DNA of 64,000 bases from positions 19,448,040-19,512,039 of the forward strand of contig NC_133225.1 in assembly GCF_040436345.1 (NCBI RefSeq), read 5' to 3'. The position numbers were made by a program, and so were the translations under genes. Positions 8,681 to 37,112 of this stretch are shown one piece after another; the first letter of the stretch is position 1; the number at the start of each line of letters is the position of its first letter. The notes under the pieces are model-generated. The model was not told the DNA's origin and did no database searches. It saw only the letters and a list, made by a program, of their open reading frames with translations. The DNA is from Pagrus major. Taxonomy: Eukaryota; Chordata; Actinopteri; Spariformes; Sparidae.

Positions 8681-11600
8681 TCATGCTCCATGCAAGTCGT
8701 TCCAGGCCCAGATACAGATGATGGTGATGAAGCTGACACTGATGAAGACAATGTACAAGCTGAACAGCAGACGGTCGATGACTATCCCGACCATTAGCCA
8801 GTCCTGCGAGGATTTGGTCCCCTGGGAGTGTTTGTCCACCTGGAGGCGGATGGCCATGAGGTCTCTGCTCAGCTTCCTCAGTTCAACCAGGGTGAGCTCC
8901 GGAGGGGCTGAAGGGGGTTTCTCTGGGGTCGTGTTATCAGAGATGTTCTGAACTGAGATGCTGGCGATGTTGGAATTCATGGCCGGTTCTGTTAAACAAA
9001 GAAAAGCACAGGTTTGATTTTTATAAAATATCCTTTTATGTATTCCAAGAAGGAAATACACACTCGTATAGGATAAAACCTTTCTGTGATGATGATCTCT
9101 GGAACATTTATTGTCACAATAATTTATAAAAAATATAAAACACTCAACTCAACTGATAGTTAACTGCAAACCAGCAAAAGTACAGCCCAACAGGGAGCGC
9201 CACAACCTTTTCAAGCACAGAATCTCATGATACAGTTTATATATCATGAAAAATCAAAGAAGCACAACACAGATTATATTCACACCGAAGCAAACAAACA
9301 AGCAAATTAGAGTCCACTGCGCAGGACATGTTTCAGTTTCCAGGGGTGGAGGTAACTAATTACAGCTACTCAAATTACTATAATTAAGTCTTTTCTTGGG
9401 TACTTGTGCTTGTGAGTATTTTTTCTACTCTGTAATACTCCTAGTTAAGTATGCATTACTCCATGTAATCTACTTAAGTACTTTTAAAATCCTAATTGAG
9501 TGCTGAGTACAATTTGAATTAATATCCAAACCTGGAGTTATCATACACTTGTGTCCTGACAAAGGCGCTGTTGCTTACAAGTGTTGCTACACTTTAAAAG
9601 GGGTGAAAAAGGAAATTCAAATGTAGGTTGCTCTACAGAAAACACTTTTTACAGGCCTGATATTTTCTACATACAATATTTTGCAGCTAATACATGAGAA
9701 ACTTCATGGGGAGATTTGTTCTTAATTAATTGGTCAAGTTCTCATGTGATTTATAGTTAAATCAGTAGTTATAATTATATATACCTGGAGGAGATGAGTT
9801 GAGGTGGACTGTGACTCTGTTGCTCGGTTTCTTTGGAGTGAGACAAACTAAAAAAGCCAGGTATCGCAGCACGAGGACACTGAGCCAGTGAGGCACTGCA
9901 CCGTACTGGTTGGAGCTGAACTGGATGTTAGTGATGAACACCGTCTCCAACAGGCTGGTCACCATCAGCGCGAGGGTGAGGGAGAAGAACACATCTGCAG
10001 GAAACAGCAACAGCAAAAACGAGGAGGATATTTCAGTAAGTATTGTGTGTTTTACTGTTTTCAGTCATACCTTTTTTTTTGTGATCCTGTTTTGGAAAAT
10101 GATGTTTACGTTAGAAACCTGAGAAACCTGTTCATTCATCTGCTTGTATACATAAGTATGACAGCTTCCAGGAATCTGGCCATCTGCCTGGAGGCAGGTC
10201 TTTTAGTGAGACCTAGAGCATAACCAGAGTCCTAATTTTCAAGCAAACACATTCAGTGAAGCGTCCGCCCAGTGGCACGCGAGCATTTATGTTGTAGCTC
10301 TGCTGGTGAAGATCCAGATTTACTCTCTTGCCTCGCGTGCAGAGGTTTTTCAGTTTCAGTGTACACACTGAGTAATATCAGTCATGTGTTAAAGGGAAAT
10401 TCTATGTCTCAGTTATGCAAATATTGGTAGTGCACTATATGTATTTAAATATATTTCTTTACATTTTGGTAAATGAGCACCACTAAAAGTATGCCGAATG
10501 ACCCATTAGCAGTTCATTTTTGCAACGTACCCATAGATGCACACACAACTGTGAATGGATTAGTTTCATGTGGAAGAAAACTTAAAAACATGATAATTCA
10601 GAGGCAAAATACACTTTAATTGGAACTCATTTCAAATGAAGAAAAAGTCCCTTATCCAGAAACACTTTCCTCCCTTACTCTTAGAGTTTTATAACATGTT
10701 CCTTCAACCCTGTCTAATTTAAAAGAAGTAACACTATCACAGGTGTCGCTCACTCATGAGAGGCGTCTGCTCCCCGGTGACAGGCAGCAGGTCGTTCATG
10801 ATGAGCAGGAAGACAGTGTAGCCCAGGATGAGGGTCATCTTGAAGGAGGACCGGTCCACACTGTGGGGAGGCAGCAGGAAGCTGAAGAGGTCCAGTGTGA
10901 CGAGGAAGCAGCTGGGGATCAGCAGGTTCACCACGTAGAGGGTTGGCCTCCGTCTCAGAATGATCTAAGGGAGACACAGAAGTACAACACCTCAAGATTT
11001 AATTGTGTTTACTTTACTTTCTGATATTATAACAATTACAACAAAGTGATCATAGAGTAATGAGGATGATTAATAGGTGCTTACATGGTATTTGATCTCA
11101 GAGTAGCTTCCCACCTCTAACGTCAGGGTGGATTGACCTAGAGTGATGTCTGCCAGCTCCCACTCCCCGTTGCTCTGCAGCACTGCTCTGGACTCCTCCA
11201 GGATCTGTTCAGCTGTGGAGCCCTGAATCATCCTGATGTCCGAAGCTTGAAGAACAGTTTTGTTTTTGAGTTATTAGAAGCCCAAAGTGAAGTTTTGTGT
11301 TAACAACCATCAACATCCAATGTACGTTCCTTATTGCAAGTCATGTAAACACACTGAATTCTGATGAAATGATCATTTCAACACTTCCTGGTTGATCTGC
11401 AGCTGAAAAGATGATGGAAAGTGAAGATCTGGAGTGACATCAGACAGTTGTTCAAGGCAAAACAGCCAACATATTAGATAGCCCATTAGCTAACGTTAGC
11501 ATTCAACCACATTCTTGCTAACATTACCGTTTAATTACATCCAGTGCTTTTTACTTCCAGGTTTAAATAAATGTGTCCAAGATTTGTGTTATTATATTTT

Positions 11601-14038
11601 AGAATTAATATCTTAATGTATTTCCTTTTGTATCATGTGTATCAAATGTTATAATGCTGCTCTTTGTCCTCTGAGGAAGGTAAGCTAACTATCATCCCTG
11701 CAGCACTGTGATATACTGAGTGAGCAGCTGTTAGCTGATAGCTGTGTTCTGTCAAGCCTGTGTTAACCTGTGTGTGTAATGTCATTTAAGTGTGTCACAT
11801 ACATGTTTCTTTACCAGCACTTATAGTACGCCTCAAGTTAGGGATTAAGAATTGGGAAAAAAAAGCACAGTGTAAATCCCCAGGCAACATTTGACAACTC
11901 CAATCACTGTTTGCATTAGACTTTTTCTAGCATACACAGCTACATTTAATCCTGTGGTGATTTTTTTGAGTCACACAGAGTGTTTATATATTTCATCAGG
12001 CATACCAAAGTGTAGATATGCTCCAAAGGTCAGAGAGCAGTTCTGGACATCGAAGGGGAAAGTGTAGATCACTAACTGGCAGGAGCTGACCACTCTGACC
12101 GGCTTGTCATCAAATACCTGACCTGTGTTGTATAAGTAGACGTAGGGAGTTCCCGGAGATTTGTCCTCGTCCATGCTGGAAAAGAGGAGAATAAAAGCAA
12201 ACATTAATTATATGTACGTATGTTAATAATTCTTTAAAATTCTAATGGGAGAGGGGAAAGCAAAGACAAGAATTTGAACAAACTGTTCGCTCTTTTTGTC
12301 GTTTTCCAAAATGTTCTATATATTTTTTATTTTTAAGTCCAACTAAATGCCCTACTTTTTGCATTAAATTGATTTAAAAAGTGCATAAAAAGCAAAAAAT
12401 GCATGTAGATATACTTTTCTTCTGTCAAACTAAGATTGCTTTCCAAGTGCTGACAACATTTCAGGTTTTTGCTTTACTCGTTTCACCAGTTTGGATGATA
12501 ATCTGGAGAACTACTGAACTTCCTTTTAACATACAATTCGGAGATGATGACGTCGGGGGTCCAAAGCATCTCCCGAGGGACGGACACCCTTGTAGTTCCA
12601 CATTCCTTTTCGTCCCAGCTCAGTCCGTCTATCTCCCACTCCTACATTAAACAGAACAATAATGTGAAGTACAGCTTAGAAGATGCATCTATTTCAGCTT
12701 TGTCACTACAAAACTTCACAAAGACAAATGTGACGTTTCACCCAAAAAAGACAAAGACTTTTGAATTGCTCTTTTTGTCACTGCACTGAAAACTTACCAG
12801 AACTTGCCACAAGACTGTCGTGAGGGTTTGGGATTTTTCATCCTATAAGTGAGACAGAGCTAGTAATGAACATTAAGTATGGATGTCTTTTAAAAGCTTG
12901 AATTAAAAGGTTTATGTGAACTCACCACTCCTAAAATCCCCACCACAGTGATGCTGATGGTAATGTTCAATGGATCTGAAAAGCTTTTCACAGGACGCAC
13001 CAGTTTGTCAGGCAATAAAGTCTTATCAAGTGCATGAAACAAGGATTTAGGAGTTGGGCTGGTGCAGTTCAATGCAGCAACAAAACCTGAGTTTATAAAG
13101 AGAAAGTAGAAAACAAGATTTACGAGGTTGTTCATGTACATAGAAGTATACATCCCCAGTTCTTTCATTGGTATGAGCACAGAAGCAATACAGATCTTTA
13201 TTTGTCTGCTGTGCACATTAGGGAACCAAATACAGCTGTTGGTACTACAATTATCTCGTCTCACAATAACTCAGTATAAGGATACGGTAGCAATCACTGC
13301 CACCACATCAGCTCCTCTCAACCTTCTTGTATGATGAGATAATTAACACATGGCACAGAGATAGTGGGCTAAAATGAAATGACCACAACTGTGGCTGTTC
13401 TCTGTTAAAAGACATGTTTATGAGATTTAGTCACTAAACTGCCTCTTTCCAGTGATACATCTGTAAACTCAGATTCCATTCAAGTCACACACAAAAGCTT
13501 TTAATTAAAGCTTAAGGCTTTATCAATTGTTAATTTCCACAACCTGGCAACCCAATTTGTTTTCTTATTAATGGCCCCTATCTGTTCTAAAAACGCATCA
13601 GTGTTTTGCTGCATTTCTCTGTCCCTCATCTCCTGCCAGTAATAAAAACATATTGTTAAATGCCCCCCAAAACAAAATATAATATTATGTATATATAATA
13701 ATGAATAATAAAAAAGCCATTAGTTACAACTTGCTAGCTTTTCATTGAAAAATTAAAGTGAGAAATAATGAATGAATACAAGAAACATGGACTGAAACTG
13801 TGTTTCTTAATGTGCCATGTAGCTGTTATAAAACTCATTTAGTCAAATGTGTATTATCTAATTTAAGGAGACTTTATCATTACTTTTGTATTGTGAACAG
13901 TTCCCACTGTGGAGGCGCAGCAGTAACTGAACTGTAACAGGTCATCGTCCTTGCTGATTGTGTAGAAAGTCAAAATGTCTTACCGTGAAGCAGCATGAAA
14001 CAGATGAAGATGAGCCCCGTGGGCTTTACCTCCCCCAT
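8681..14038 (-). CDS. 5-HT3-receptor-like Cys-loop channel, gene A (475 aa, complete)
   Basis: A pentameric ligand-gated cation channel subunit for the plasma membrane. Nine exons, high to low: 13984-14038, 12926-13086, 12798-12842, 12535-12641, 12006-12175, 11085-11245, 10754-10964, 9785-9994, 8681-8988; summed length 1428 bases keeps frame from ATG to TGA. A signal peptide ([12 protein letters not shown]) is followed by the extracellular domain with the Cys-loop [15 protein letters not shown], then M1, M2 ([18 protein letters not shown]), M3 ([14 protein letters not shown]), a short cytoplasmic loop and M4 ([16 protein letters not shown]). The -1' residue of M2 is Asp where 5-HT3A has Glu, so cation selectivity is expected. 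Loop B reads GAYLHF, with Tyr in place of the serotonin-binding Trp. It is closest to genes C and D. I call the family with high certainty; the ligand is not known. Confidence 0.85.
9335..9570. repeat. hAT-like MITE (GGGGTGGAGGTAACTAATTAC type)
   Basis: The run GGGTGGAGGTAACTAATTAC, followed by alternating ACTCAAATTACT and TTAAGTACTT motifs, matches a common teleost non-autonomous hAT-type repeat that I remember. It sits in the last intron of channel gene A. The ends and target-site duplication are not resolved. Confidence 0.55.
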
Positions 14039-15042
14039 TTTAAGTCTAAGTTAAGCTTTTATCTTGAAAAGTACAAAACAAAAGTAGTCCGCAGTTATCT
14101 CCATCAGACTGAGACGTTGTGACAGAGAAACATGACTTGATCAATAAACAGGTGAGGTGTGAAACCACCTCCAGAGGACAATATTGACGCTAGAATATAT
14201 CACCCGGTAGCGTGACTTAAAGCTTTCAGGTATTCCCAGTTATTTGAAAATTACCACACTGATGTTTGCATAAAGCGTGCTTGAATCGTACAACAGGTTT
14301 TTTAATCATCTCCTGCCAAAGCAAACAGTTTGCACATGGCCTGTAGCTGTCAGTTTGCCTCCCAGAGGACTGTAGATACTGGGTAGGTGGCTATCCTCAT
14401 TCGTTATTCAATAGTTTTAGTATCCTTATATTTGCTAAGCACTTACACAAAGTACAACTGATGCTGATGGGACTGTCATCTGTTGATTTAGTCATAAACA
14501 AAAGTACTGTCAATCAGGACTGCTGACAGTCTTGTGCCCAGGACAGGATGAGGCCTCTGGACTGGTGTCATATACCAGGAAAGGGGCGAATGCAACATTG
14601 GTTGATTTCCATAGTGATTCACACAAAGATGTGTGCTTATATAAGAAAACAGAGTTTGTGACGTATGAAAAATAAAATAAGGATTTCGTCCACCAACTCA
14701 CTTGCTGTCAGGACAGAATGCCACATGTCAATATTCTGATACATGGCTTTATTTTGAAATTATCATGTTCATTTATTTACATTAAACTTTTCAGGTTCAC
14801 TTCCCCCAACCACAAAACCCTCTGGTAACACAGGAAAATAGTTAACACCTGTCCCTTCATCAAATGGCTTTACTTTGCAAAATCAAACACAGAAACAAAC
14901 TTTAAACAAATACAGAAACAATAATTGATAAATGATGACTTTTATTTTGCCTACTGGTTTTCCAACTGGCTTTTTTAACTTGTTATTCAGACGTCTTATG
15001 AATTGAATCCCAGCCAAGGTTCAAATCCAAACACATGTCCAC
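14039..15042. other. Spacer between channel genes A and B
   Basis: About 1 kb holding the promoter and 5' UTR of gene A (on the - strand) and the 3' flank of gene B. I see no coding exon and no strong repeat. The intergenic distance is short, typical of a tandem array. Confidence 0.6.
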
Positions 15043-18000
15043 TCAGGTCTGGCTGATCCAGATGCACCACATGGAGATGATGACCAGGGCGTAACAGGAG
15101 ATGAGCAGCAGATAGATGCGGAACAGCAGGAAGTCGAGGACATATCCCACGTGGCACCACTGGTCCTGCAGCTCGCTTGCCTTCTGCAGCGAGGTGAGGT
15201 GGGCTCGAAGGTCACCCAGATACTGACAGATCTGTTGCAGTTCAGGCATAGCAACTGTACCTGGTAGGAGAATAGCGAGATGAGGGATCACAGTTTACAC
15301 GCAGTGACTGCCGGCTGCGACCGTTTCAACCAACTGAAAATACAGTTTTTGATATTTACTGAGTCTGTTTGATTACCTCCGTTGCTGGCTGGGGTCTGAG
15401 CAGGTGCTTGGCTGGCTGGTGGGATGATCCCCGGCCCTGAACCTCCATTTGAGCTGTCAGTTTTATCTTTTCGTGGTACAGACAGGGGCTGGATGTCCTC
15501 CGGCCATCGGTAGCAGATGAGGTTGGCTATGTGTTTGAGGACAACCACCCTCACCCAGTTTGGAACCTCTTTATATTTCATTGTGTTGTGGTGGAGGACG
15601 TTGGTAATGATGACCGTCTCCAGTAGACTGATGACCATGAGGGCCAGACACACAGAGAAATAGATACCTAGGTTGAGGGATAGATTGAGAGATTAAAGGG
15701 ATAGACTTGATGTTAATCCCTCTTCAGTAGCAGCCAAAATAAATCTACAGGGAGTTGGCAGAGTTGGATTTGATTTCTGACCTATGATGGGCGTGCCGTT
15801 TGCTGTGCTTGGCAGGAGGTCGTTCATAATGAGCAGGAAGACGGTGTAGCCCAGGATGAGGGTCATCTTGAAGGAGGCGCGGTCGACGCTGTGGGGCGGC
15901 AGGTAGAAAGACAGGATGTCGATGAGCATGAGGAAGGAGCTCGGGATCAGCAGGTTGACAACGTAGAGCACCGGTCTCCGCTTTATGACCACCTAGTGGA
16001 CAAGAATCAGTGTGAAGAGACTCACCATCTTTACTGTACACATCAACAACTTTTAGGTAAAGAATAAAAAATGATGGTAGGTTACTTTTCATAACTGACA
16101 GATGTTAAAGTTACAACCTAACTCTACTATCTAAGGAGGGAAATTACCTGACAAAGATGGCAAAACGTGCACCTAAAGTATTTTTATTCTTGAGAATACA
16201 TCTGTATTTATAAATTCTTAATTCTGTGTTAACTGATTGTCTTCGTTCTTTAGGGTTAGGGTCTGTTTTTGGTCTCTACCAACACCTGAGAAAAATATCT
16301 GGCTCTCCGCTAAATGCTCCACTATCTAGTTGCTGACTGTGTCTGTCTGCTGTTTGGTGCTAGACAGGAAGAAAGTGTGTTGGGATGTTAGATTATTATT
16401 ATTTTTTTAAGATTAAGGTTCTAATTCTCTGTATGTTCATCAGTATGAATGACCCCTTTTTGCGCCTGTTATATTTGCAGATGTTACAGTAGTAAACACA
16501 GTGGTTTTCCTCACCCAGAAAGTGATGATATCCCACTCGTCTATCCCAAACTGGAGGATGGAGGTCTCCCCCAGTATGTCCACCAGCTCCCACTCTCCAC
16601 TGGCCTCCAGGTAACGCTTTGAGTTTTCAGACATTTCCTTAAATGTCAGTGCTGGACTGACCCTCACATCCCTTACTGTGTAGAGAAGAAAACACAATGA
16701 GAGAGAGAAAACTAGTGTACGAGTACAATCAAAGCTAACCTAAATAAATAAGCCAGCTAAATGTAATAACTAATTTATATTTTTATATTCCTTTTCCTTT
16801 TGTATTTACTTATATTTCCTGCAAAAGTTCCCCAAAGTGCACCAGGCTGCAGCTGCATTTTCTGACCCACTATTTAGCTTTAATGTCTCTTTGTCCAAGT
16901 GTAGCTAATGACTGGATGAGCTTATCATTGTGTGATGCCTTTTCTCACTGGTGTGCATGTAGGAGCCAAATGTAAATGTGCAATTCTGCACGTCAAAGGG
17001 AAAACTGAAGATCTTTAGGTTGCAGGCTGAGACGAGCCGCAGCATCCTGTCCCAGCGGATATGACCTGTGTGGTTCACGTAGACGTAAGGACACGCTTGG
17101 GAAACATCATCGTCCACACTGAGAGCGTTGGAGGTGGAAAGATGAGGATGAAGTAAAAGAAATAAACAAAAACACAGGGAAAGAAAAACACATTCAGACA
17201 TTGTCACGTTTTTTTGTTAAGTTAACGAAATTGGCGTGAGCATAAACCAGTGACACTGACACTGATACTTGATGTGAGAGGGTGGTAAGTGCACCCATCT
17301 GTCTCAGAGCTCTAACTACTCTGTAATGAACCATTTAGTTTGTGCACACTAGACCCTCGGGGACTTGTTACAGCTGGAGAACTTACAACTCATACACGAT
17401 GATGTCTGGAGACCAGAGCTTCTTCACAGGGAGAGAAATCCTGGTGACGCCATCACACTCATCAGGATCCCAAATCAGGAACTCATGGTGCCAGTACTGC
17501 AATGAATCAATGAGGAATAACGCACTCCTAAACTGCTGCTGCTGTGGTTACAGGCAAATGATGAATTTGGATCAGACTGCATCACATTTATTGACTTCTC
17601 GTGCTACTTACCAGTCGAAGCCACAGGAAAGTAGTGAGTATCTGAGTTTTCTCATTCTGAAATACATCAAACAACAAATAAACCTCATGTGAAGCTGATT
17701 GACATCAAACATCTGCTGACATGACATTTTGACACTGAACTTCTTTAACATGGATTTAGAAAACGTTCTTCTTATATTGCTAATCGATTAACTCACCACT
17801 CCCAGGACTGCATACAGGGTGAAGGAGATGTTGGCTATGGTGGGATTGCTGAGGTTCTCTGCTGGTCTGAAGGGCTGTAAGTCAAACACAGCCTGCATGG
17901 ACTCGTAGGTTGGACCGCTGTGGCCGTCTTTACAGGTCAGTATACTATAGCAGAGAGACACTGACAGGAGAAAGTTTATAAAAGCACTTCTGAAATGCAC

Positions 18001-18809
18001 TTTTTAACTTTCCCATTTCCAATTTTGAGAAATTAATGTTTTATTCTATATGTAAAGCAACAGTAAACTATATAAAACAAAACACTGTGCATTTATTGAA
18101 AATGACTCAAATGCAACAAAGCTATGGTACCATATCTGCTACAAAGTTACTAAATGGCATATTATTGCAGACTTTATCTGAGATTTGAATTTTGAATTAT
18201 TTGGATGTGAAGCAGAAAATGAGCTTTGAATAATCTTTATATCATAAACTGGAGGCTAAACACCAGATTCACTGTGTAATGTCAGGATACTGACATTGAG
18301 AAGAACAGGGCAGATGAGGTTTGACAGTAGTTAGGTAGCGGTAACATCCTGTGATTGCTCTTCAAACATAATGTGGCATAACGACTCAAATTAGGTGAAA
18401 GATTCCTTTATTTTGAAATCAACACTACTCATGATTTATCACAAATGAGAAGCATACCCGATAGATATAAGACAGATGAATGTTTTCAGGATTTTTCTCC
18501 ATTTATATGTTCTCATATGGAATGATACGTGTCAATTGAAATTTGAGAAAAGCAGAACAATTATATCAATATGATCACACTGTTAGGATCATTTAAACCT
18601 GAAACACACAGGGGTAACTAACTTAATAATACTATAATTAACAACAGAACTGCTGTTATTATATTATTGATTACATGAGGAGGAAGAGGAAGTTTTCAGT
18701 AGCAGAGGTAAACATGCTTCAAACAATAAAGTAGTGAATAAAAAGAATCATTACCTGACAATAAGAGTAAACCTGAGAGGATGCTGATTCTCTGCTGAGA
18801 CGGACTCAT
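15043..18809 (-). CDS. 5-HT3-receptor-like Cys-loop channel, gene B (474 aa, complete, most divergent)
   Basis: Nine exons, high to low: 18755-18809, 17797-17960, 17612-17656, 17387-17496, 16949-17118, 16515-16675, 15782-15992, 15377-15667, 15043-15260; total 1425 bases in frame. ATG at 18809 opens a signal peptide ([10 protein letters not shown]). Cys-loop [16 protein letters not shown]1 follows [11 protein letters not shown]2 has [19 protein letters not shown]3 [14 protein letters not shown]4 [19 protein letters not shown]. Loop D keeps WLR as in 5-HT3A. Loop B is GSYMHT, with Tyr instead of Trp. The M3-M4 loop is longer than in A, C and D, through a larger eighth exon with a Pro/Ala/Gln-rich stretch, and M4 resembles true 5-HT3 subunits more (ending [10 protein letters not shown]). 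It may be an older, distinct lineage or the partner subunit of A, C and D; that is inference. Confidence 0.85.
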
Positions 18810-20681
18810 GCTGGATGTTTCTGAAGGACCGACTGTTCTCCACCACCACCGATCAAATCATGTGTAAAGCAAAGATAGCTGCTACCAGCAGAGGAAAGCC
18901 ACACACTTGTTTTTGCCACTTAGCAGGACGCTGAAATGACTAAACCTCAATTCTCTGGAGACTTACACTCACCTTAACCACTTCCACTTCAAGCCTAAAT
19001 CCAACCCCATAACATGATCCTCAGTAAACGCTAAAAAAGAAGACAAGTCGATAAAATTTGGTTAACTTGTAGACCCAGATCTTAAATGCGACCTCATAAT
19101 GTGAACGTGTGTTTTGTCTCTGCGAACGAAGACAAAACTGGCCTAATTACAAATGAGTAAACAGTCTGTTCATTAATTTGCCCCATTAACCAATAAAATT
19201 GTGATTATATTTTACTCAAGCAAAACAAAAACCTGAAGTAAAAAAAGGAGGTTTTCAGCTTTAATATTATCAAGATGTTTCTATCCTTTTGAGGACATTT
19301 AGTTCTCATGAATAGAAATGCAAAACACAAAATTATCATATCTGCAGATGGATCATAAACACACACAGGACGACATACAACTTGTTGTTCCACACCTCCA
19401 GTAACCACTCACCCATTTTATTTTTCAACACCTCCACCTGTGGGAGTTACACATCTGTTCCATACTCCAGTGCTGTGTGCTGTTCTTGTTTTTTTGCAGT
19501 AATGTAGATGTTGTACTGACTGTTGTAGTGAAGAGGGAGCTGAGCCTGAAGGTGAAGCTCTCATTTTACCAGTTTATCAGTCCCAAACACTTTTGTAGTA
19601 GGGCAGCCTCTATGTTTCACCACTGGAAGGTCAACCTAGAGGACATGTCATCACGTTCTCTCAGCCTGGTCTCACCAAATGGCGTACGAACAACATGGCA
19701 ATGGCTTAAGTCATTTATCACATTGCATCTTTTCTTTTTTCGTTGCACAGTCCACATTCAGCTACGTTACATAGATTAACAAACTCAAAAACTTGATGCA
19801 TAGACATGGCTCGCAAAATGTGCTTTAAATTGACATGCTTTGTTAGTTTTCTCCACCGGAAGAGAACCTTGCACATTGAGCCACCATCGAGGGAACTTCA
19901 TCATGTTTTTTATCTAACACAGGAGCATCCAAGAGGGCACTACTGTAGCATTTTTTGCAAATTGAGGTGACTGCAGTTATTAATAAGGAGACCTTGGGAA
20001 TATATTTCCTACCATTTCTGGGTTGACAAGAACAGGTGTTTCTAAACAAGACCTCCCGACATCTCCTGCAGTATTTGTGGCGCAAAAACCACTTGGTCAG
20101 GGTTAGGAAAAGATCATGTTTTCATCACAGATGCTCTTGGGAATTGCTCTCCTTAAAAATATCCTGTGTTATCAAGCTTACAAATGCTGAAACGCCAGCT
20201 CAAGCTGAGATCACTGGCTTGGAGTTAAGATGCTTTTGGGAAATGAGGAAAAAAGGCAAACAGAAGAACTTGTACGACACATGGACGACACTGTAGTGTT
20301 TTCTAGTGTAGATGAGATTATCAGAAGAATCTTCTCTGTATCTTTATTTCATTCTCTCTTCGTCACAAACAATCATACACTGAACAATGTAGTGAAACTT
20401 GTTCTCTGCATTGAACCTATCCCAGAGGAGCAGAACAGTGTCTACTGTAAGTCTTCATGCTTGTTGAAGTTTGCAAATATTTGCTGCTGAACTGGCTGCA
20501 AGAGAAGAGTCAGCAGGAATTTCTCCCTGATATTGGTTTCAGATACTCAGTACTTCACTGTAAGATCATTTAAAATAAAATAAAATTTGAAACATTAAAA
20601 CATTAAAAGAAATTTAGATCTAACATATTACTTTCAAATATAAAGTTAAGTAATTTGACAAAGCTTGTTAACAGATAATAA
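18810..20681. other. Spacer between channel genes B and C
   Basis: No gene is recognised. It holds the 5' flank of gene B, one fragment of a widespread repeat near 20070-20140, and 3' flank of gene C. Small open frames on both strands show no family resemblance. Confidence 0.55.
20070..20140. repeat. Repeat fragment (GGTTAGGAAAAGATCATGTTTT type)
   Basis: CAAAAACCACTTGGTCAGGG followed by TTAGGAAAAGATCATG matches a second copy at about 52680-52740 (TTGGTTAGGGTCAGGAAAAG). I recall this as a common teleost non-autonomous element. The boundaries are unclear. Confidence 0.55.
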
Positions 20682-23600
20682 TTAGTATGATTTCAGCCAG
20701 AAAAAGGTTATAGTAATGAAGCTGACGACTATGAAGAGGATGTAGAGGAGGAACAGCAGGCGGTCTATGATCAAACCAACCTGGATCCACTCCTCTGCGC
20801 TCTGGCTTCCACTCAGCTGCTGCTGCACCTGAAGGTTGAGAGCCTTGAGGTCTCTGCCCAGGCTCCTCAGCTCCTGCAGGGCCATGTCCTCATCCAGTGG
20901 CCCCTTCTGCTCTGGAGCCTCGTTGTTCTCCTCCACCAGAGAGGAGACATTTATTTCTGTTGCAGAGGACATGAGGGAGGAGGTGATGCCAGCTCTGGCA
21001 CTTGAGCAAAGATCTTCCTGCAGCTCATAACGCACATGTCTGCATGAATAGTCTAGCTTGTGTTAAACCACATTGCAGGTCAGACATCTCACCTTGAGCA
21101 GCAGGATTTTGGATGACTGTGTCCTCCTGCTCTCCGGGCTTTGGAGGAAGCCGGACCAGGCGGCCCAGGATGTGGAGCACAAACACTCGGATCCAGCGGG
21201 GGACTGGAGGGTAGTGAGCGGAGCCAAACAGCAGGTTGGTGATGAGGATAGTCTCCAGTAGACTGGACACCATCAGAGCCAGGCACAGACACAGGAAGAT
21301 ATCTGGGACAATAATAATACATGTTGCTTCACACACAAATACAAGTCAAAGTGGCAAAGACACGTTTCTGCTTCAGCATTCATCCATCTCAAAATAGTTC
21401 AAGCTTTTGAAGAAAAAAAAAGAAGCGCATTCAAGTGTGTAACTTTTGCAGGTCAAGCCAGCATTTTTCTGTAGCTGATGGATTTGTAATTGCACCTTTT
21501 TCTCCCAGTCCTGCCCTTCTGTCAGTTTCATCTCGTGTTTATATTACTCTCTAAACTTTTTTTCCATGAATACTCAATTCAATACTATTACAGGTGGGCC
21601 AAAAGACGTCATTAAGATAAATAAAAACAATATAAAAGTTTTATTTGCAGTTGTGTCATGAAGTTTGAAATAACAATGAAATATTTATTATTAAATACTT
21701 ACATTTAAAAGAGTAATCATAACTGATAAAACAAGGGAGGTAAATTACATTTAAATCTTCATTTATCTGACCTATTTTTATCTGCCGTTGTATTGAAGTC
21801 ACCTATGTAACAAAGTATTTTTGGGGACTAAGATTTAGTTTTTTACTTTAGAGTTACAGGTTAGAGTTTAGGTTATTCCCCTGTTAAACTGAATAAATCA
21901 CCTACTGTGTACAAGTAACCTCAAAGTACTGGGTTAACTCACACTGGCAGAATGTAACTTACTTATGAGAGGTATTTTGTCTCCAGTGACAGGCAGCAGG
22001 TCGTTCATGATGAGCAGGAAGACTGTGTAGCCGAGGATGAGGGTCATCTTGAAAAAGGAGCGGTCGCCGGTGCTGGGAGGCAGCAGGAAGCTGAAGAGGT
22101 CCACTGTGATGAGGAGGCAGCTGGGGATCAGCAGGTTCACCACATACAGGGTGGCCCGACGCTTCACTGAGACCTGCAGCAGAGTCGACGGCAGCTGGTA
22201 AACCTTACTTTTCATTTCTCTGGTGCTGGTGATGTGCCGTTAATTTATACAGTTTTCTACCCTAAAATCATGTTTCTCCATTTAACACTGCCTGTTAAAA
22301 AGAATGTACGTAAATATGTAAGTATTAAGTATGTTATGACTCTAAGAATGTTTGTTTTGTTGATTTCATTAAAGAATTTCTCAAAGCTACAGCACAATTA
22401 AAGACATGTAGCATTTTAAAGACTGTACTGTCAATTTTCAGGAAAAAAACATTTGGAGTGTTGAATGCCAATGGTATAATGGTTTTACAGACATTGTTCA
22501 CATTTCAATTTATTGAACCTTTATTTAACCAAGAAAATCTCATTGAGATTAAAAATCTCTTTTTCAAGAGAGTCCTGGCCAAGAGAGGCTGCAGCACAGA
22601 CATAAAGCAAACATATATCAGTTAAAATAATAACAAACTGCCAAGTCATAAAACATTAATCAACATTCAAAACATCTACAGCCAGGTGACATTTCTCTCA
22701 AGTCGTTTAAAATCACTTTTCGGTGAGACGAGCTCCCGGAGGTTCAGACAATTGTGTAACTGATACCAAGCTGAGGGAGCAGCATACTTAAATGTCCTTT
22801 TACCAAGTTCAGTATGGACTTTAGGGACAGTAAGTAGAAGTAAATCCTGAGAGCGAAGGCCCTTACTCCCTGTACTTTTTTGAAAGATGTAGTACTGTAG
22901 GTAGAAAGCAAATAGTTCATATTTTGCACGTTAACTGATTTGTATTTTCATTGTTCTCTTTAATCTCGCTCCTAAAATTCTTTATGTCCAAATTATTGAG
23001 TAGAAAAATACTAAACATAGACGAAACTCTTGTTTTTGGATCACTTTTCAAAAGACTTTATTAATCCTGTCCCTCTGCCTGCCATCTTTCCTGTTGTGTG
23101 ATGCGTTGTGTGAATAAATAAAACAGTACAAGGTTTTTTTTTTTGTCTAAATTATTTCCTTACAAAAAAGCGAACAAATTGGTAAGCATCTCCATCCGAG
23201 GCTGGGCTGTGTAATGTCTCAGATGCGAGTCCAACTAGGTCCCACTCCCCCATTGTTGCCATCACTTTTTTAGAGACATGTAAGATGTCCTCTACAGTTA
23301 ATGTATGGCCAATCTCCAGATCAGACACTGAAAGGAAAGCATAATGTAATCAAAGCTTTGGTGAGATTTAATAAACAAAATACCAATCTGCAACATTCAA
23401 TTTACAGAATGTGTGTTAAAAAAGATGCAACAAACATTTCAGTCCGTTTATCTCAAGTACTGTCGAAGTGCAATTAACAATAAAAAATTAAGATTCAGAT
23501 CAGTTTCTACTTACTACGATATAAGTAGGAGTTAAAGGTGAAACTGCAGTTCTGGATGTCGAATGGAAACGTGTAGATGTCGAGCCTGCAGGAGCTGAAA

Positions 23601-25657
23601 ACTTTGACAGGCTGTCCATCAAGCACGAAGCCATCATGATACACGTAAGTGTACGGGACAAATGGAGCCGAGTTCTGCTCCATACTGCAGGATGAGAAAA
23701 GACATAAAACCCAATAAATATAATTGGTAATAGCCTTTCTGTGTGTATGAATGGCTACATCTGTAAATCGTAAACATTTATAAAATCTGAATAATGATCG
23801 TAAGATTTAGAAGAGATATTTTTGCAAAAACAGATTATAATAATATAGAATTATCAGTTTTTGCTCATGTTTATGTCAATTTGTTAACCTGTTATTGAAT
23901 CTGTGTTTTATCTGGGGAACAGCTGAGACTGCGCTGCTCTACAGAGAAGATGGTACTTACAATTCATTGATCACCACATCTGGTGACCAGAGCAGTTTTC
24001 TTGGAATTGTAATCCATTCAGAACCGCACTGTTCTGGGTCCCATTCGACAAACTCATTTCTCCATGTCTGTAAAAATGTGAACATTTCATTTCATGATTA
24101 TCCTGATTCTCGATATTGTCCCAGTAGTCATCAAAATATTCCTAAAATGGCACAAAACAAACTGGGATCACTTTAACATTACATTTTGTTAGGAAACAAA
24201 TATTTTTGATTGTATCACAGATTGGACAAATTATTTCGTGAAAAACCGTCAAAGACTTTTAAATAAGTATTCACACGTTTTTTTCTGCACAAATAAAGGA
24301 TAAATAAATAGCTTTAACATCTCCCTGTCATGTTTTAGTTTGGAATCCGTAATACTTACTTAACTTTCAGGAAAGTCAGAGAGGAAATCAGCTACTCAGC
24401 CTTTTCAAGTCAATTATGGGAGGATATTCAAGATTATCCTGATAATGAAAATTCACCAGGTTCATCTAATTGTGAGTGTTTTTTTTCCATTAGGATCAGT
24501 GAGAAAACCTTTTATTGTTACATACAGAGTTTTCAGGTGATGTCTGGTGGGCGTATTAGCTCTTTAGCTCAGATGGTCCCAGTTTAACAGAGTTGTACTG
24601 TGATGTTGTCTGTTACACCTTTTTTTGTTAGATTACATCATGCAGTATCTGGTTTTCTATTGCTGGTATACACTAGGATTAACCCAGAAGATATGATCCA
24701 ATTTGACAACTTCTGTCTTTTTCATAATTTTTAAGGCTGGAGAGAGATCAACAATTTTACAATTGCAAGACAACAGTGAAGTTGATTGTAAAGCAAGTAC
24801 TCACTAAAGCTTGCCAGATATACGTCTTCAGGATTTGGGCCTTTTCATCCTGGAAAAAGAACCAACATTTTCACCATTTAGAAACTAAAAAAGATGAACT
24901 GCTACTGTGTTTGTACACAGACAGAAAGCTGTTAAAAGACATAAAATGAACCAGTTATTTATGGGTCTGCACTTTGAAGCAGTGTTGCCTAACAGTGACT
25001 ATGTTTTAGGTTAATGTCGTGTCACTTACCACTCCCAAAATGCCATACAGGGTGAAGTCGATGCTGATGCGGGTGGGGGTCGACACGTTCATGACAGGTC
25101 GAATGGAGCTCAGGTTGAAGACCGGTTTCAGAGCTTCCAACAAGGATGGCCGGTCAGGTTTAGAGCAGTTCAGCTTGAAGGAGCTGCACGGAGCTACGGA
25201 GGGAAGATGAAATGTGCCATCATGATTGTAATAGTAGACTCACATTGACTGCATCAGCAGCAAGAATTTCCCAACCCCCAATCTGTATAGTTACTTAAGT
25301 AACCCGTGCAAAGTACAGTAGGCGTTCTTAAACGACAGAAGAGAAGCAAAAGATTGAAGTGTGAGTCAGCACGGTTTGAAGACATTGCAATGTTTTTCAG
25401 TTTTTCTTTTTTTATTATCACTTATTGTTGGTGGAGATTTCCTTTTTTTGCCAATCATCAAACCACTCAGAAGTGCCCCAAATCTTTCTGTGTCGATCCT
25501 GTTTTTACATGACATAATATAACAATTCAATATACAGAATATAGGCTGTATTTAACTAGTCATAAATACACATGTATAGAAGTATGTACTCACCATGCAT
25601 GAGGACAGAAATGAAGATGAATAGAAGCTTAGAGGGCTTGACTTTCAACAGGCGGCA
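20682..25657 (-). CDS. 5-HT3-receptor-like Cys-loop channel, gene C (first exon not found)
   Basis: Exons, high to low: 25594-25657 (signal region [12 protein letters not shown]), 25030-25193, 24805-24849, 23961-24067, 23515-23684, 23164-23327, 21963-22173, 21093-21302, about 20682-21013. Exon sizes match genes A and D. Cys-loop [16 protein letters not shown]2 region [19 protein letters not shown]3 [15 protein letters not shown]4 [16 protein letters not shown]. Loop B is NSYLYR (Tyr for Trp). The first listed exon starts right after TTTTTAG at the same place as exon 2 of gene D, so a small upstream coding exon with the ATG is expected; I could not find it, and a MITE-like repeat begins about 10 bases upstream. 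The last intron is only about 79 bases and its acceptor (GCAGGAAG) is weak, so the start of the last exon is uncertain. A LINE 3' end sits in the intron at 22174-23163. Confidence 0.78.
22500..22930 (-). mobile_element. Non-LTR retrotransposon (LINE) 3' end
   Basis: Read on the - strand, 22930 to about 22680 encodes a LINE ORF2 C-terminus, with [16 protein letters not shown] and NLRELVSP in the pattern G..AF.YAAP..WN.L seen in L2/Rex-type elements. It continues into a 3' tail (TTTCAAGAGAGTCCTGGCC on the + strand) that I recall as abundant in teleosts. It is truncated at the 5' side and lies in an intron of channel gene C. Confidence 0.65.
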
Positions 25658-27356
25658 CTAAAAACCAGTGGTGGGAGAAGTATTCAGATCCTTAGCTTGA
25701 GCAAATGTATCAGTACCACACTATGAATATACTCCACTACAACTAAAAGTCCTGCATGAATGCAGTATTACAAGTAAGTATTATCAGCAAAATGTATTTT
25801 GAGTACCAAAAGTAAAAGTACTCATTCTGTAGATAAAATGTCCTGTGTTTTATTAATATATGTCATGTTTTTGGATTAATGTTACTGCTGCTTCATATGT
25901 TTGTAGTCACCAAGGAAACCATGAGTTTTCCAGCTAGTCCAAGGTGTGTTGAGTTAACGCAGCTGAAGACGGAAACGTAATCCTTCAGTATAGCAGAAAA
26001 ATGTAAAATTATAACAAGAACCAAATGTAGATACATGGTTTTCAGTGGACAGGACGGGTAGGAAAAATTGCAGTATTCAGAGTAACTAGCAGCGAAAGCT
26101 GTAAAAAGCACATTGTTTGCCTCTGAGATGTAGTTAAATAGAAGTATAAAGTTATACTCTTAGATAAATACCTTGAATTTGTAATTACCGGCCTTTGTTA
26201 ATGTACAGTTTGAATGGTGTGTTGGTGGTTAGACCTGTCCAGTAAATATATTTTAGGTGGCAAATATACAGACTTGCTGCACTTTAAGAGATAATATGTA
26301 ATATATGTACTTTCTCGCATATGCAGTAGTACTTCCCAAGATCTGTAAACACACTTTAATGTGTGAAATTGGTGGAGTAACCCTTTAAATGCGATCTACC
26401 AGCAGAAGAAGATGCTGTCTAGGTAAAAAAAATGTCCCTCCTGCTTACACCTTGATGAGTTCTGCACAATCAGACAGCTAAATACAAGATATCTACTCTA
26501 AATCGAATCACATGGAGTATTATTCTTCATCATAAAAAAACACACTTCTACATAAAATCAGCTTATGTTATTGCAAGTGGCCACATACCATATATCTGTT
26601 TTCAAGGCCACTTAGTTCCATTCAGGAAGATTCGGATTCATTCACTCATATTTCAGACAACAATGTGCTTCCAGCTTCGTGGCAAAGAGCCCTGACCTCG
26701 ACCCCACTAAAAACCTTGAGGTGAATTTGAAAGCTGACCAGAACGAGGCCTTATCGCCCAATATCATTGTCTGACCTCAATAATCTCTGCAGCCAAGGTA
26801 TAAAATCATTACAGTGGATGTCTGCATACAGTAAAGTGTGCCCTTTTCAGTTTACCAAATGATTATTTTTGTTTGTGTGACTCCACAAATGTTTGTTGTT
26901 GATCTTTAAGTACTCATTTCAATCCTTGTCTAAAAAGATCTGATTACAGCTGCTATTTATTGTGCATGATTAAGTTGTTCTGATCCTGTTGCCTGTGGAC
27001 GGGACATGATTTTTATGTTTGAAATGAATATCAATCGAAAACTGAATGAATTTTTTCAAGTGATTTTATTTTGTATACATGGTTTTCTCCATTTTCTGAC
27101 AGGCACAATATAACACAAAAGGCTTAAAACTACATCTTGTCAAAGTAGAAGAGCTAATTTAATGTCCAGTAGCAATAACATGAGTGTTTGTTATAGTTAA
27201 CAATAATAATACAGTAACTTTAGAGTATTCATGAATGTCTTGGCTCCAAAAAAAAATCGTCTAAACACACAGCAATATTCTCATGTACTGATCAAACAAC
27301 AAACATTTGAGTCACTAGCTACACAAATGGAGCTCTTTATAACAGACAGCAGTTGT
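25658..27356. other. Spacer between channel genes C and D, with repeats
   Basis: No exon found, including the expected first exon of gene C. It begins with a hAT-like repeat (25667 on). Around 26330-26395 is AAACACACTTTAATGTGTG followed by GGTGGAGTAACCC, which I also recall as repetitive in teleosts. The rest is AT-rich and unremarkable. Confidence 0.5.
25667..25900. repeat. hAT-like MITE (CAGTGGTGGGAGAAGTATTC type)
   Basis: CAGTGGTGGGAGAAGTATTC, then ATACTCCACTACAACTAAAA and AAAAGTACTCATTCTGTAG, is the known layout of a very common teleost non-autonomous hAT repeat. The left end is clear; the right end is not. Confidence 0.65.
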
Positions 27357-30300
27357 CTACTGACTGTATGAGTTGGACCAGATTATCATGATGGTAATGA
27401 AGCTGACTGAGATGAAGAGGATGTAGACGCCGAACAGCAGGCGGTCAATGATGAAACCCACCTGCATCCACTCCTCCGAGCTGTTGTTGTCCCCCAGCTG
27501 CTGCTCCACCTTGAGGCGGATGGCCTGGAGGTCCCTGCCCAGACTCTTCAGCTCTTGAATGGCCATGCTGTCCGCCACTGGCCCCTTCCCCTCTGGAAGC
27601 CCATCAACAGCCATTTGCTGTGCCACCACAGTGCTGAGTTTCGTGTCTGGTTCATGAGGAAAAAAGTTTGAAATGTTTCAAAATCAATTCAGAAAATACT
27701 GTCATTCCATCATTATGAACCAACTGATCAGCTCCTCTTGATCAGTCATTTGTAATCTTACATTCCTAACATATAAACTGTGTACCTGAACCCTTTGGTT
27801 CTTTAGTCTTCCGAGGCATGCAAACAACACAGGCCAGAATCTGCAGAACAAACACTTGGACCCAGCGAGGGATGGGAGAGAGGTTAACAGAGCAGCTCAA
27901 CAGATTGGTGACGAGGATAGTCTCCAGTAGACTGGCCACCATCAGAGCCAGGCAGAGAGAGAAGAACACATCTGTCAAAGAGAAAGTAAGAAGTTAGGCC
28001 GGGACATAAAAGAACAAAAAAGTTTGCACTGTCAGAAAGTGTTTTAGGTTTTACTGTATAATCAACAGGTGGACAGCTGCTTATGATGGTCAAAAACTGA
28101 AAACGCATCTGTAGTCTAAACATAACTTAGGACATGAAAATCATGACTGCATCCAATTTTAACACATTCTACAAGACCAAAATCTGCTAATTTCCCAAAA
28201 CTCTCCTCACACATCCGCTTGTGCACTTGTGGGATGCTTATAAGTAAAATGTAGAGCGATGCCACCATAAAAAAACCACAAGATAAAACTTTCCTTGAGA
28301 CTGAATAACACTGACTTATGAGAGGTATGGTGTTTCCAGTGATAGGCAGCAGGTCGTTCATGATGAGCAGGAAGACCGTGTAGCCCAGGATGAGGGTCAT
28401 CTTGAAGGAGGACCGGTCCACAGACTGAGGGGGCAGCAGGAAGCTGAAGAGGTCCACTGTGATGAGGAAGCAGCTGGGGATCAGCAGGTTCACCACATAC
28501 AGGGTGGCCCGACGCCTCACTCTGATCTGTGAGGGGAAAATTCAAAAAACACTTTGCCAGGTAACTTCTCTGTGTGCACCTGATACTGAAAGGTTTTGTT
28601 TCTCATTCATCTGAAAGGATGCCAGAAGGTGTAACTTTAGATCATCTAACAAGACATGAACATACTGATCAGCATGCATCATATATAGGAACACAGTTAT
28701 ATATTACAAGCCAAATGACGATCACACAAACATCCAATATTATTTTCAAGTTAGGACAAAATACTCCCACACGCTGTCCTCTTCAGTTGCAAACCGGAAG
28801 AAAAAAACATGATTTAGGAAAAATAAATCAAAACAGAGATAACTGAACCCTTCACTCTCAAATCTGAGCCTGAAATGCAATTTACAGTTCATTAACCCCA
28901 ATTTAAGGATGTTACAATCGACCTACATGAAATGCGAGCTCATCGATATGTGCACCAGTAGAAGAACCTTGGGTGAATTTGTGGGAGGTGATGTCCAGCA
29001 GCTCCCACTCCCCCATGGTGGTTATCACCTCCTTGGAGAACTTTGTGATGTTTTCTGCAGACTTCCCCAGGGAAATTTCTATGTCCGTCGCTGGGGAGAG
29101 AAGAACAGAGCATTGTTATAAAGTTGAGAGCGATCAAAGCACAGATCCATGTTACATTGTGCATCAACAATAAAACATTGTTGACTGGCACACAAAGGTC
29201 TTTAAAGAAATTGGACATTTGGTGTGTGAGCTCCTTACAATAGTGGAGGTAGGAGTTGAAAGTCAAAGTGCAGTTCTGTATGTCGAAGGGGAAGGTGTAG
29301 ATGTCGAGGTTACAGGAGCTGACAACTCTGACTGGTTTAGCGTCGTGTATCTGCCCGTTGCTATGCAGGTACACATACGGGACATTGGGGGCTGTGTTTT
29401 CATCCATACTGCAAGACAGGGAGCAAGTAGAGGAGTTATGAGTGTCATGTCTTCAAAATAAGGGCATGGCAACTTTAATGTATCCAATTCATCCACATGT
29501 TGCATATTTATGGTCCTTTTAATAAAGTGAATAGGTAATAAAGCCATCATAAGTCCTTATTAGATGTTAATGAACATCAATAAGACTATATCAGCATTAA
29601 TAATCACATCATAAACATGGTTATAGTTAGATTATAGGCATTTATAAGTACCTTGACAATTATTATTATTATTATTATTACTACCAGTTAACTATGGTTT
29701 ATGCAGCTGATTGTCTTTGTAATGCTATTATAAGCAAAACATTCACACAAGTGTTTATAAAATTCCTGCGTTACCCAAAATTTGGATGCAGTTGTATAAA
29801 AATGCAGTACAGGAGTATCAGACATCGTCAGGGATAACTTGCTTTTGTTGTTTTCATGGGATTTGACAGTGAGACAAATATAGCATATTAGCTTTATCCC
29901 TCAACACAGATATATTGTAAGAGCATGTTAAGATGACTCTATTGTACAGTACAGTTCATACAGCAGATGGTTTAATATGGTCAAGTATGATGGAACTCAC
30001 AATTCATTGATTACAATGTCTGGCACCCAAAATTTGTCTCTGGGAAGAGAAATCTTACTGGTGCCACACTGGACTGGGTCCCAGCTGATAAACTCGTTCA
30101 CCCAATACTGAAACAACAACAACAAAGTGGTGTAAGTGCACAGAAGATGACATGCCATGCCATCAATTATGCCCAATTTGGAAATTATGATGGATGATTG
30201 CAGTACTTACATAATTTACCCAAAGGAAAGTGAGCAAGAGTTGAGCCTTTTCATCCTATGAGACAAGAAACATTTTTTTTTTGCACAAATCCTTAACGGA

Positions 30301-31247
30301 GACTCAGTGGAGCGCCACAACAAAAAAATGTGGTTTAATCAATGTCTTTAATTCAGCTTATATTTAATTGAATGATAGATGGTGTTTCTTCTCTGGTGAC
30401 AATATTAAATATATGATGCTAAATTATACATTTATAAAGCTAATCCTGGTAAAGAAATTATTTTTTTTGTTTTGTAATTTACCAAAAAATACTGTACATA
30501 TGAAAAGTTTTAGAAGTGCCCCGTACTCGTGCAGAATAATCTACTGAGAGCTGAACATACCACTCCAAGTATCCCATACAAGGTGAAGAAGGTGCTGATG
30601 TTGGTGCGGGTTGTTATGTTCATGACGGGTCGTATGGCGCTCAGATTGAATGAGGGAGTCAGAGCCTTCAGCAAGGCTGGTTGGTTCGGCTCGGTGCAGT
30701 TCACATGGATGGCACTGCACAGAGCTGACAAGAGGATTCAAACATTAGAAATCCATCCGAGAACATGCTCGCACAGCAGACCTGCCACTAAAAAAGTGGA
30801 TTATCTCTCATGTCAACTTTAATGTACAATACACATTTAAATCTTCTGGTATCTTGCTTACAATACTGCACATACATTATATATTGTATATGCAGTTTAA
30901 ATTCTTATGCACTTTTCAGGTTTGTTACCTTGTTGGTTATGTTTTTTTAGAAAACCTTTAGATGCAAGACCTCCTGCTTGGTTTTCAATATTGTGCTTAC
31001 CTGGTAGAAGAATGAGAAACATGACCAGAGTGGGCTGGACTGATGGAGGGAGACTCTAGAATAAAACAACAATTGTTTCAATATAAGCATCTTCAAAAAA
31101 AATTAAGAAGTGTCATAAGTTAAAGAGAGGATTGAACATTATTTATTTATTCATTCTAACTATATATAGCCTCAAAAATAACTTGGTAAAATGTAAAATA
31201 TGTAGGAGAAGATACTTTACCTTCACTGTAGTGTCCTTGGATGTCAT
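27357..31247 (-). CDS. 5-HT3-receptor-like Cys-loop channel, gene D (472 aa, complete)
   Basis: Ten exons, high to low: 31221-31247, 31001-31055, 30561-30724, 30211-30255, 30001-30107, 29239-29408, 28927-29090, 28316-28526, 27786-27971, 27357-27646; total 1419 bases in frame. Unlike A and B, the signal peptide is split over two exons (MTSKDTTVK, then VMFLILLPG). Residue landmarks: Cys-loop C165-C179 ([15 protein letters not shown]), loop B Tyr186 (NSYLHY), M1 about 252-272, M2 from Asp281-Arg282 to about 302 ([18 protein letters not shown]), M3 about 316-336, pre-M4 Trp436 and M4 about 444-466 ([16 protein letters not shown]). The M3-M4 loop is short. Loop E has DAKP where 5-HT3A has NYKP, and loop C lacks the tyrosines. 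Family certain; agonist unknown. Confidence 0.87.
29659..29681. repeat. (ATT)n microsatellite
   Basis: About seven ATT units in an intron of channel gene D. Confidence 0.9.
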
Positions 31248-35201: not shown

Positions 35202-35330
35202 CCTGTCAATGTCAGTGGTGCTGGTGGCTGACAGCTGATCGGTACAGTAGCCTATGCAGTCAACTAGATAGAAGGATTTATCACCCTTCGCTTGAGAGAG
35301 TTTGATTGTGATCCTACCAGTAAATTTGAG

Positions 35331-35342
35331 GAAAACGAAACT
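35331..35342 (-). promoter_or_regulatory. ISRE upstream of RTP copy 1
   Basis: GAAAACGAAACT fits the interferon-stimulated response element GAAANNGAAACT exactly. It begins 130 bp upstream of the ATG, and related sites stand at the same distance in copies 3 and 4. Confidence 0.6.
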
Positions 35343-35570
35343 GGAGAACTGGTTTCTTGAAAATCCACGCCTAGTTTTAGAGACTTACGCAATGCCTAAT
35401 TGCCTGTCCACCCTATTTATAAACAGAAATAAAGAAAGGGAGCAGCTATGTATGAAGGCTATGCAGAAATAAAGAACGGCTATGTGTGTGTATGCAAAGC
35501 AATGTAGCTGCTTTGTGTGTATTTGCATAGTGAGGGTCAATTATGCAAATACACACATACCTGATGGTGT

Positions 35571-36165: not shown

Positions 36166-36290
36166 TGAACAGATAAATTCAAATTGGAACGCAAATTGAC
36201 TTCCAGCGAGAACAAATACGAAAGCTTATATGCCCTTCAATACAACAGATAAATAAGAGGAAGCCATGAAACAGGAGGGCAAGTTCAGAA

Positions 36291-36639: not shown

Positions 36640-37112
36640 CTGGAAAATGGCAGAAGACCCAAGTTAAAGACAAAATGACAACCAAACAAACGTACACTGG
36701 AAAGTTTCACATTTCTTCAGACTTGCCAACCTCAACACCTCAAAAACAGAGGGAGGATTTCAAAACCAAAACCAGTTCTAACTAAATTGCAATTGCATTT
36801 TTATGTCAACTAATTAGAATTTTTCTTTGAATTCGCAGAAAACAACACAGGATAATTCACCCTCTGGCTTAAATCTGTGGCATAAAGTTATATTTATCAC
36901 TTTTCATTCATTTATTTTTTGCCCCTGCCTTCCGGGGTGTGTGCACGCCACTGCCCTGTTTTGTCAGCCTCTTGATGTGGACTGACGCGGCAGATTTTAC
37001 AGTCCCTTTCCTGTTAAACGTCACAAGAAACAGGAATTCTGTTCTCCAGACAATCTGAAATTTGTTGAAATATTCTTTCTCCTCTCCATTTCTCTGTCCA
37101 TCTCTCACTTAC

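Follow-up and report, generated by a model that had tools for sequence, protein, structure and literature searches.

The window analysed here, a whole 64-kb stretch of the Pagrus major genome (NC_133225.1, contig C11, positions 19448040-19512039; genome of 785.9 Mb in 25 contigs), carries four 5-HT3-type genes, A to D, all encoded by the minus strand (8681-31247). Their products lack three serotonin contacts, Trp183, Tyr153 and Phe226, and they are probably fish members of the vertebrate 5-HT3C/D/E branch and helper subunits of heteromers built around htr3a.

Gene models and binding-site residues

Gene models were obtained with a spliced aligner, using a provisional human 5-HT3A query, and the exon edges were then checked. 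The four genes are the following (exons in coding order).

8681..14038, minus strand: gene A, 5-HT3-type, nine coding exons (13984-14038, 12926-13086, 12798-12842, 12535-12641, 12006-12175, 11085-11245, 10754-10964, 9785-9994, 8681-8988); stop-free spliced model of 475 amino acids; PF02931 1.3e-36, PF02932 4.1e-23
15043..18809, minus strand: gene B, 5-HT3-type, nine coding exons (18755-18809, 17797-17960, 17612-17656, 17387-17496, 16949-17118, 16515-16675, 15782-15992, 15377-15667, 15043-15260); stop-free spliced model of 474 amino acids; PF02931 9.1e-38, PF02932 1.2e-29
20682..25657, minus strand: gene C, 5-HT3-type, exons 25594-25657, 25030-25193, 24805-24849, 23961-24067, 23515-23684, 23164-23327, 21963-22173, 21093-21302, 20682-20992; stop-free spliced model of 481 amino acids from the signal-peptide exon onward, start-codon exon not located; PF02931 7e-36, PF02932 1e-23
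27357..31247, minus strand: gene D, 5-HT3-type, ten coding exons (31221-31247, 31001-31055, 30561-30724, 30211-30255, 30001-30107, 29239-29408, 28927-29090, 28316-28526, 27786-27971, 27357-27646); stop-free spliced model of 472 amino acids; best PDB match 5-HT3A, 6e-101; PF02931 2.5e-36, PF02932 1.7e-20

Each of the four has both channel domains (PF02931, 7e-36 to 9.1e-38; PF02932, 1.7e-20 to 1.2e-29) and a C-x13-C loop, which makes them Cys-loop receptors, and within that superfamily they are 5-HT3-type subunits. Gene D, the one run at full length against the PDB, matched 5-HT3A with 6e-101 and the best non-5-HT3 chain with 2.4e-44; for gene B the open frame around exon 5 was compared with 5-HT3A in the PDB. 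Exons 3-7, counted as in gene A, measure 45, 107-110, 170, 161-164 and 211 bases in the array, the same plan as in the htr3a of this genome (45, 110, 170, 161 and 211 bases).

The introns of all four spliced models are GT-AG and the frames are open. The first-pass annotation had implied that gene C is not intact, and this could not be upheld: its frame is free of stops, all eight modelled introns are GT-AG, the acceptor of exon 9 being weak, and the lone gap is the start exon. Three loose candidates only were found for the start-codon exon of gene C; the best match to the first exon of gene D scored 21, against a mean of 20.6 and a maximum of 26 in 30 shuffles. Gene C as a broken copy was thus rejected, the start exon alone being missing.

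Residues were called from an alignment of A-D with the genome's own htr3a. The exons with the Cys-loop and loop B are these.

12006..12175, minus strand: gene A exon 5, Cys-loop and loop B GAYLHF, Tyr at the Trp183 place (alignment)
16949..17118, minus strand: gene B exon 5, Cys-loop and loop B GSYMHT, Tyr at the Trp183 place (alignment)
23515..23684, minus strand: gene C exon 5, Cys-loop and loop B NSYLYR, Tyr at the Trp183 place (alignment)
29239..29408, minus strand: gene D exon 5, Cys-loop and loop B NSYLHY, Tyr at the Trp183 place (alignment and PDB alignment)

The Trp183 place lies, without gaps, seven residues past the second Cys of the Cys-loop, and it holds Tyr in A-D and Trp in the own htr3a and htr3b. 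An alignment check for a Trp in loop B, for which the first-pass annotation had called, found none in A-D (Tyr in 4/4). The loss of this Trp from all four genes, claimed there with the same loop B motifs, was thus confirmed. Its other residue calls were borne out as well: loop E is changed throughout, Tyr153 being replaced by Asp, Asp, Gly and Ala in A, B, C and D; loop C of gene D is without its two tyrosines and has His-Ile in their place; and the Cys-loop (C-x13-C), the loop D Trp (Trp90) and a cation-type pore are kept in all four.

Beside Trp90, the residues Glu129, Tyr141, Tyr143 and Thr179 are retained in all four subunits, and Thr181, Trp183, Tyr153 and Phe226 are lost in all four. Thr181, where A-D have Gly or Asn, also differs in the own htr3a and htr3b. 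Other positions vary within the array: Arg92 is found in B only (1/4), Asn128 in C and D, His185 in A, B and D, Tyr234 in A and C (2/4), and Glu236 in A and D. Trp195 is absent from all four and from the own htr3a too. Five residues were taken as criteria for a serotonin-binding subunit of the 5-HT3A type; Trp183, Tyr153 and Phe226 occur in none of the four genes, Tyr234 in two and Arg92 in one. The own htr3a has the full set (Trp90, Arg92, Asn128, Glu129, Tyr141, Tyr143, Tyr153, Trp183, Phe226, Tyr234 and Glu236). In M2 all four array subunits have Asp at minus-1-prime, Leu at 9-prime and Asp at 20-prime, while the three portal arginines are gone, with HTQ, LSD, QSE and QNE (A to D) against RRK in the own htr3a.

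Related genes and position in the tree

Column 183 was excluded from the trees, and the human 5-HT3B, C and E rows were provisional sequences (there was no row for human D). A-D, human 5-HT3C/E and nine other Trp-less genes of this genome were separated from 5-HT3A/5-HT3B with a support of 98/98. The corresponding split reached 97/96 without the human B, C and E rows, and A-D with human C/E stood apart from 5-HT3A/5-HT3B at 98/100 when the nine other genes were removed. Within the array A, C and D grouped together (99/99), and with the nine removed B fell outside both this group and human C/E (63/50). The own and the provisional human 5-HT3B paired at 100/99, and there was no one-to-one correspondence between A-D and the human genes. 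The outgroup and the C23 gene are flagged by the tree program as long branches. At least two changes between Trp and another residue are needed on this tree; the losses would most simply be placed at the base of the Trp-less branch and in human 5-HT3B, the latter according to its provisional row.

The other genes concerned are listed below by contig.

C13:25071795-25078140: htr3b, loop B Trp kept
C20:20623371-20677043: array of seven 5-HT3-type Trp-less genes
C20:25584632-25588089: single Trp-less 5-HT3-type gene
C23:26723423-26725258: single Trp-less 5-HT3-type gene

The htr3a and htr3b genes adjoin on C13 and both have the loop B Trp. This fish htr3b keeps the Trp and human 5-HT3B (provisional row) has Ile in its place, so mammalian 5-HT3B may have lost the Trp independently. 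Altogether 13 of the 15 modelled 5-HT3-type genes are Trp-less, which is a lower bound, as the family search scores the best candidates alone. The nine outside the window resemble A-D in being 5-HT3-type and Trp-less and in having the same cysteine pair. They differ from A-D in the loop B residue (Ala, Val, Ala, Val, Val, Ala, Asn, Asp and Met), in having FC for C after W-x-x-x-x (e.g. WDPDQFC), and in forming a branch of their own (100/99). The M2 segments of C20_2 to C20_7 are very similar to each other. As orthologue of the medaka channel olZAC the C20 and C23 genes were rejected: for the two tried, C20_5 and the C23 gene, the best PDB match was 5-HT3A, with no ZAC chain among the 60 matches listed for each. 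The tree was made without the C5, C8 and C20_0 candidates, which lack a full 5-HT3-type model, and without the nicotinic-like C10 stretches; C20_1 and C20_2 were trimmed after M3.

A pair of cysteines accompanies the loss of the Trp in this genome. In A-D the first lies 21-22 residues ahead of the R-P-[VA] motif at the start of strand 1 (4/4), and the second stands five residues past a Trp in the segment joining loop D to loop A (WDEKEC, WDPDEC, WDPEQC and WDPVQC in A to D). Both are present in the nine other genes, the second one place later and the N-terminal Cys of C20_1 taken from a raw reading, so that the pair occurs in 13/13 Trp-less genes; it is not found as a pair in htr3a or htr3b. 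The own htr3a has neither cysteine (the first short exon of its model falls inside htr3b and is doubtful, and a separate reading of the N-terminus was used for this check), while htr3b lacks the second and has other N-terminal cysteines, as does the provisional human 5-HT3B. The provisional human 5-HT3C/E rows have both cysteines with the spacing of the window genes. An N-terminal Cys with W-x-P-x-x-C was used as our own criterion for the 5-HT3C/D/E branch, derived from the provisional human C and E rows, and it was found in 4/4 window genes, in A in the form WDEKEC. In nicotinic receptors the two corresponding places are near neighbours in the uppermost part of the domain. We propose that a second, putative disulfide marks the Trp-less branch.

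The extracellular domains of A-D are 40-54% identical among themselves, against 72-90% over M1-M2. Compared with the own htr3a and with human 5-HT3C (provisional row), the identities of A-D are 52-66% and 56-70% over M1-M2, 44-60% and 60-64% over M3, and 42-45% and 33-42% over M4, respectively. The ratio of nonsynonymous to synonymous rates (dN/dS) was 0.31-0.48 for the whole gene in all six pairs of A-D, and 0.16-0.31 for the ligand-binding domain in four of the five pairs run, the fifth being undefined; dS is near saturation and these values are rough.

The pore is encoded by exon 7 (10754-10964 in A, 15782-15992 in B, 21963-22173 in C, 28316-28526 in D), which differs at fewer fourfold sites than the other exons pooled in several pairs: A-C 7/33 against 51/80 (p 5.9e-5), A-D 7/34 against 45/80 (p 4.8e-4), C-D 5/36 against 37/93 (p 0.006) and, weakly, A-B 12/29 against 40/60 (p 0.038). 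No such extra likeness was found for B-C (p 0.23) or B-D (p 0.82), and the 100 bases of intron flanking exon 7 on each side are just 50-58% alike. The unusual likeness of exon 7 among A, C and D may reflect gene conversion or synonymous constraint.

Proposed role and rival explanations

The first-pass annotation had offered two interpretations, a teleost-expanded branch of 5-HT3-like channels with a different agonist, or subunits in need of a serotonin-binding partner. A teleost branch that lost the Trp by itself is not supported, since the loss maps most simply to the base of a larger branch which also contains human 5-HT3C/E (Phe at this place in the provisional rows) and the nine other genes; the different agonist is treated below as a rival. 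The need for a partner is supported: a binding-competent htr3a is present in the same genome, and human 5-HT3C/D/E, the nearest known relatives, are reported to work solely with 5-HT3A (PMC11339754, PMC8376721). The same two papers report that these human subunits combine with 5-HT3A and yield no functional homomers, and PMC8584345 puts the serotonin site at the A+A- interfaces.

We infer that A-D form no serotonin-gated homomers. They would co-assemble with htr3a; serotonin would be bound at the htr3a-htr3a interfaces, and A-D would complete no serotonin site of their own. The array subunits would supply pore, portal and assembly properties and so alter the conductance. Because the portal arginines are absent and the minus-1-prime acid, the 9-prime Leu and the 20-prime Asp are kept, the heteromers are predicted to be cation-selective, with a single-channel conductance higher than that of htr3a alone and a serotonin affinity set by htr3a. 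The prediction for the portal draws on the known effect of the arginine triplet, which according to PMC8584345 accounts for the <1 pS of 5-HT3A against the 16-30 pS of the AB channel.

Several observations weigh against this assignment. The human B, C and E rows in the tree are provisional and not database entries. The grouping of A-D with human C/E to the exclusion of the nine other genes had a support of 72/85, or 60/82 once the long-branched C23 row was removed, and A-D stood together with 48/28. Raw identity gives human C no advantage: the ligand-binding domain of A-D is 39-42% identical to that of the own htr3a and 37-41% to that of the provisional human 5-HT3C. Human 5-HT3C/E (provisional rows) have Asn at minus-1-prime, so the fish pores differ from them in some respects. 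The human dishevelled genes lie near HTR3C/E; of the 12 exon matches to this family none is on C11, all being on C2, C7, C10 and C21, which speaks against an HTR3C/E linkage, and synteny through dishevelled was rejected. Finally, an alignment in PMC12172986 pairs a Trp of human 5-HT3D (W160) with W184 of 5-HT3A, thus the branch may not be uniformly Trp-less.

The array subunits might instead be channels in their own right, either homomers or heteromers of array members only, that open to a different ligand (an amine, a metabolite or an environmental chemical), with the loop B Tyr in a rebuilt aromatic pocket. This would agree with the cation-type pore of all four, with its acidic minus-1-prime residue missing from the provisional human C/E, with the retention of Glu129, Trp90, Tyr141 and Tyr143 in 4/4, with the low identity of the extracellular domains (40-54% against 72-90% over M1-M2), and with the nine further Trp-less genes. 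However, the loop C and loop E contacts vary from gene to gene with no shared new pattern, the low extracellular identity equally fits relaxed constraint, and the nearest known relatives are reported to be inactive alone (PMC11339754); we regard channels of this kind as rather unlikely. Likewise unlikely, in our estimate, is the wider version, by which the whole fish Trp-less branch (four plus nine genes, with the cysteine pair, cation-type pores and fast-changing extracellular domains) would consist of self-standing or array-only non-serotonin channels, with a ligand domain free to diverge and a pore exon homogenized by gene conversion, in the manner of a chemoreceptor family.

Gradual loss of function, with copies retained by chance and a drifting binding site, could be read from the missing start exon of gene C and from the binding residues that differ among copies. 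It is very improbable in view of the long stop-free frames with GT-AG introns in 4/4, the strongly kept pore segment and a dN/dS below 1 in all computable pairs, rough as these values are near saturation; the open frames and these ratios agree with the earlier statement that the genes are not decaying. A zinc- or metal-gated channel like ZAC, its loop B Tyr holding the ion by a cation-pi contact, appears scarcely credible. According to PMC13036004, human ZAC binds Zn chiefly by Tyr176 of loop B and by Phe67, and medaka olZAC, which is activated by Zn, shows no greater relatedness to mammalian ZAC than to the 5-HT3 subunits. But the PDB alignment pairs ZAC Tyr176 with Thr181 of 5-HT3A, a place that precedes Trp183 by two residues and holds Gly or Asn in A-D (4/4), and ZAC Arg88 falls on Arg92, retained in B only (1/4). 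Gene D matches 5-HT3A at 6e-101 with no ZAC chain among the best 60 of 303 matches, and PMC10513076 describes ZACN as mammal-only. The provisional ZAC query matched the PDB ZAC with hardly a letter of difference. With the Tyr two places off, at Trp183 and not at Thr181, a ZAC-like zinc site was rejected.

Chromosome neighbourhood and known systems

Around the array the following features were found.

1545..2723, plus strand: open frame with a partial Rubicon homology domain (PF13901, 1.5e-7), rubcn by our reading; the first part of the domain is upstream, in the adjoining stretch L047 (PF13901, 2.4e-25)
33660..43538, minus strand: four receptor-transporting-protein-like (RTP-like, 3CxxC zinc ribbon) copies; PF13695 3.1e-19 to 1.2e-26 in four of the five frames tried; neighbourhood evidence only

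A-D sit between a rubcn-like gene on the left and an RTP cluster on the right, and human RUBCN, RTP1/2/4 and HTR3C/D/E are all on 3q27-q29. The fifth RTP-like frame, without a PF13695 match, is likely a first exon. Five RTP-like matches were found in the genome, four of them inside the window. The third copy (36330-36647, minus strand; C11:19484369-19484686) has one in-frame TAG in its zinc-ribbon match, the other three none. Past the end of the window, in the adjoining stretch L048, lies a rhodopsin-type receptor. Between 44 and 64 kb the survey consisted of a list of open reading frames, tandem repeats and tRNAs.

No paper on this fish cluster was among the literature matches listed for fish or teleost htr3, the binding residues of C to E, ZAC and RTP linkage. 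The closest survey, PMC9977066, includes sequences from fish in the trees for 5HT3C and 5HT3D and names fishes in the E pattern; its treatment of binding residues concerns 5-HT3A, with W184 highly conserved. The C, D and E subunits are described in PMC8584345 as little studied and not expressed in rodents; a fish that carries several of them intact might therefore be useful as a genetic model. This assignment moves A-D from strange channels to a known, poorly understood branch, a known kind of subunit in fish. The kept pore chemistry, the absent portal arginines and the cysteine pair offer concrete predictions.

Among known systems, ZACN and medaka olZAC (PDB 8WGE) share with A-D the Cys-loop channel family, and human ZAC has a functional loop B Tyr, but this Tyr176 is at the Thr181 place and gene D is far closer to 5-HT3A. 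With 5-HT3A the array subunits have in common the fold family, the exon plan, the Cys-loop, Trp90, Glu129 and the 9-prime Leu and 20-prime Asp of M2, whereas A-D have none of Trp183, Tyr153, Phe226 and the portal arginine triplet. 5-HT3B is likewise an accessory subunit without portal arginines, and the human protein (provisional row) also lacks the loop B Trp (Ile); unlike A-D, the htr3b of this genome keeps that Trp and has no cysteine pair. Human HTR3C/HTR3D/HTR3E likewise form a tandem cluster, with RTP and RUBCN on the same chromosome arm, and share with A-D the 5-HT3-type pore and the loss of loop E Tyr153. Human C and E (provisional rows) also have no loop B Trp (Phe) and carry the N-terminal Cys with W-x-P-x-x-C. 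A-D differ from them in having Tyr instead of Phe in loop B and Asp instead of Asn at M2 minus-1-prime, in lacking the two-residue gap of the M2-M3 loop seen in the provisional human C/E, and in being four copies that do not correspond one to one to the human genes.

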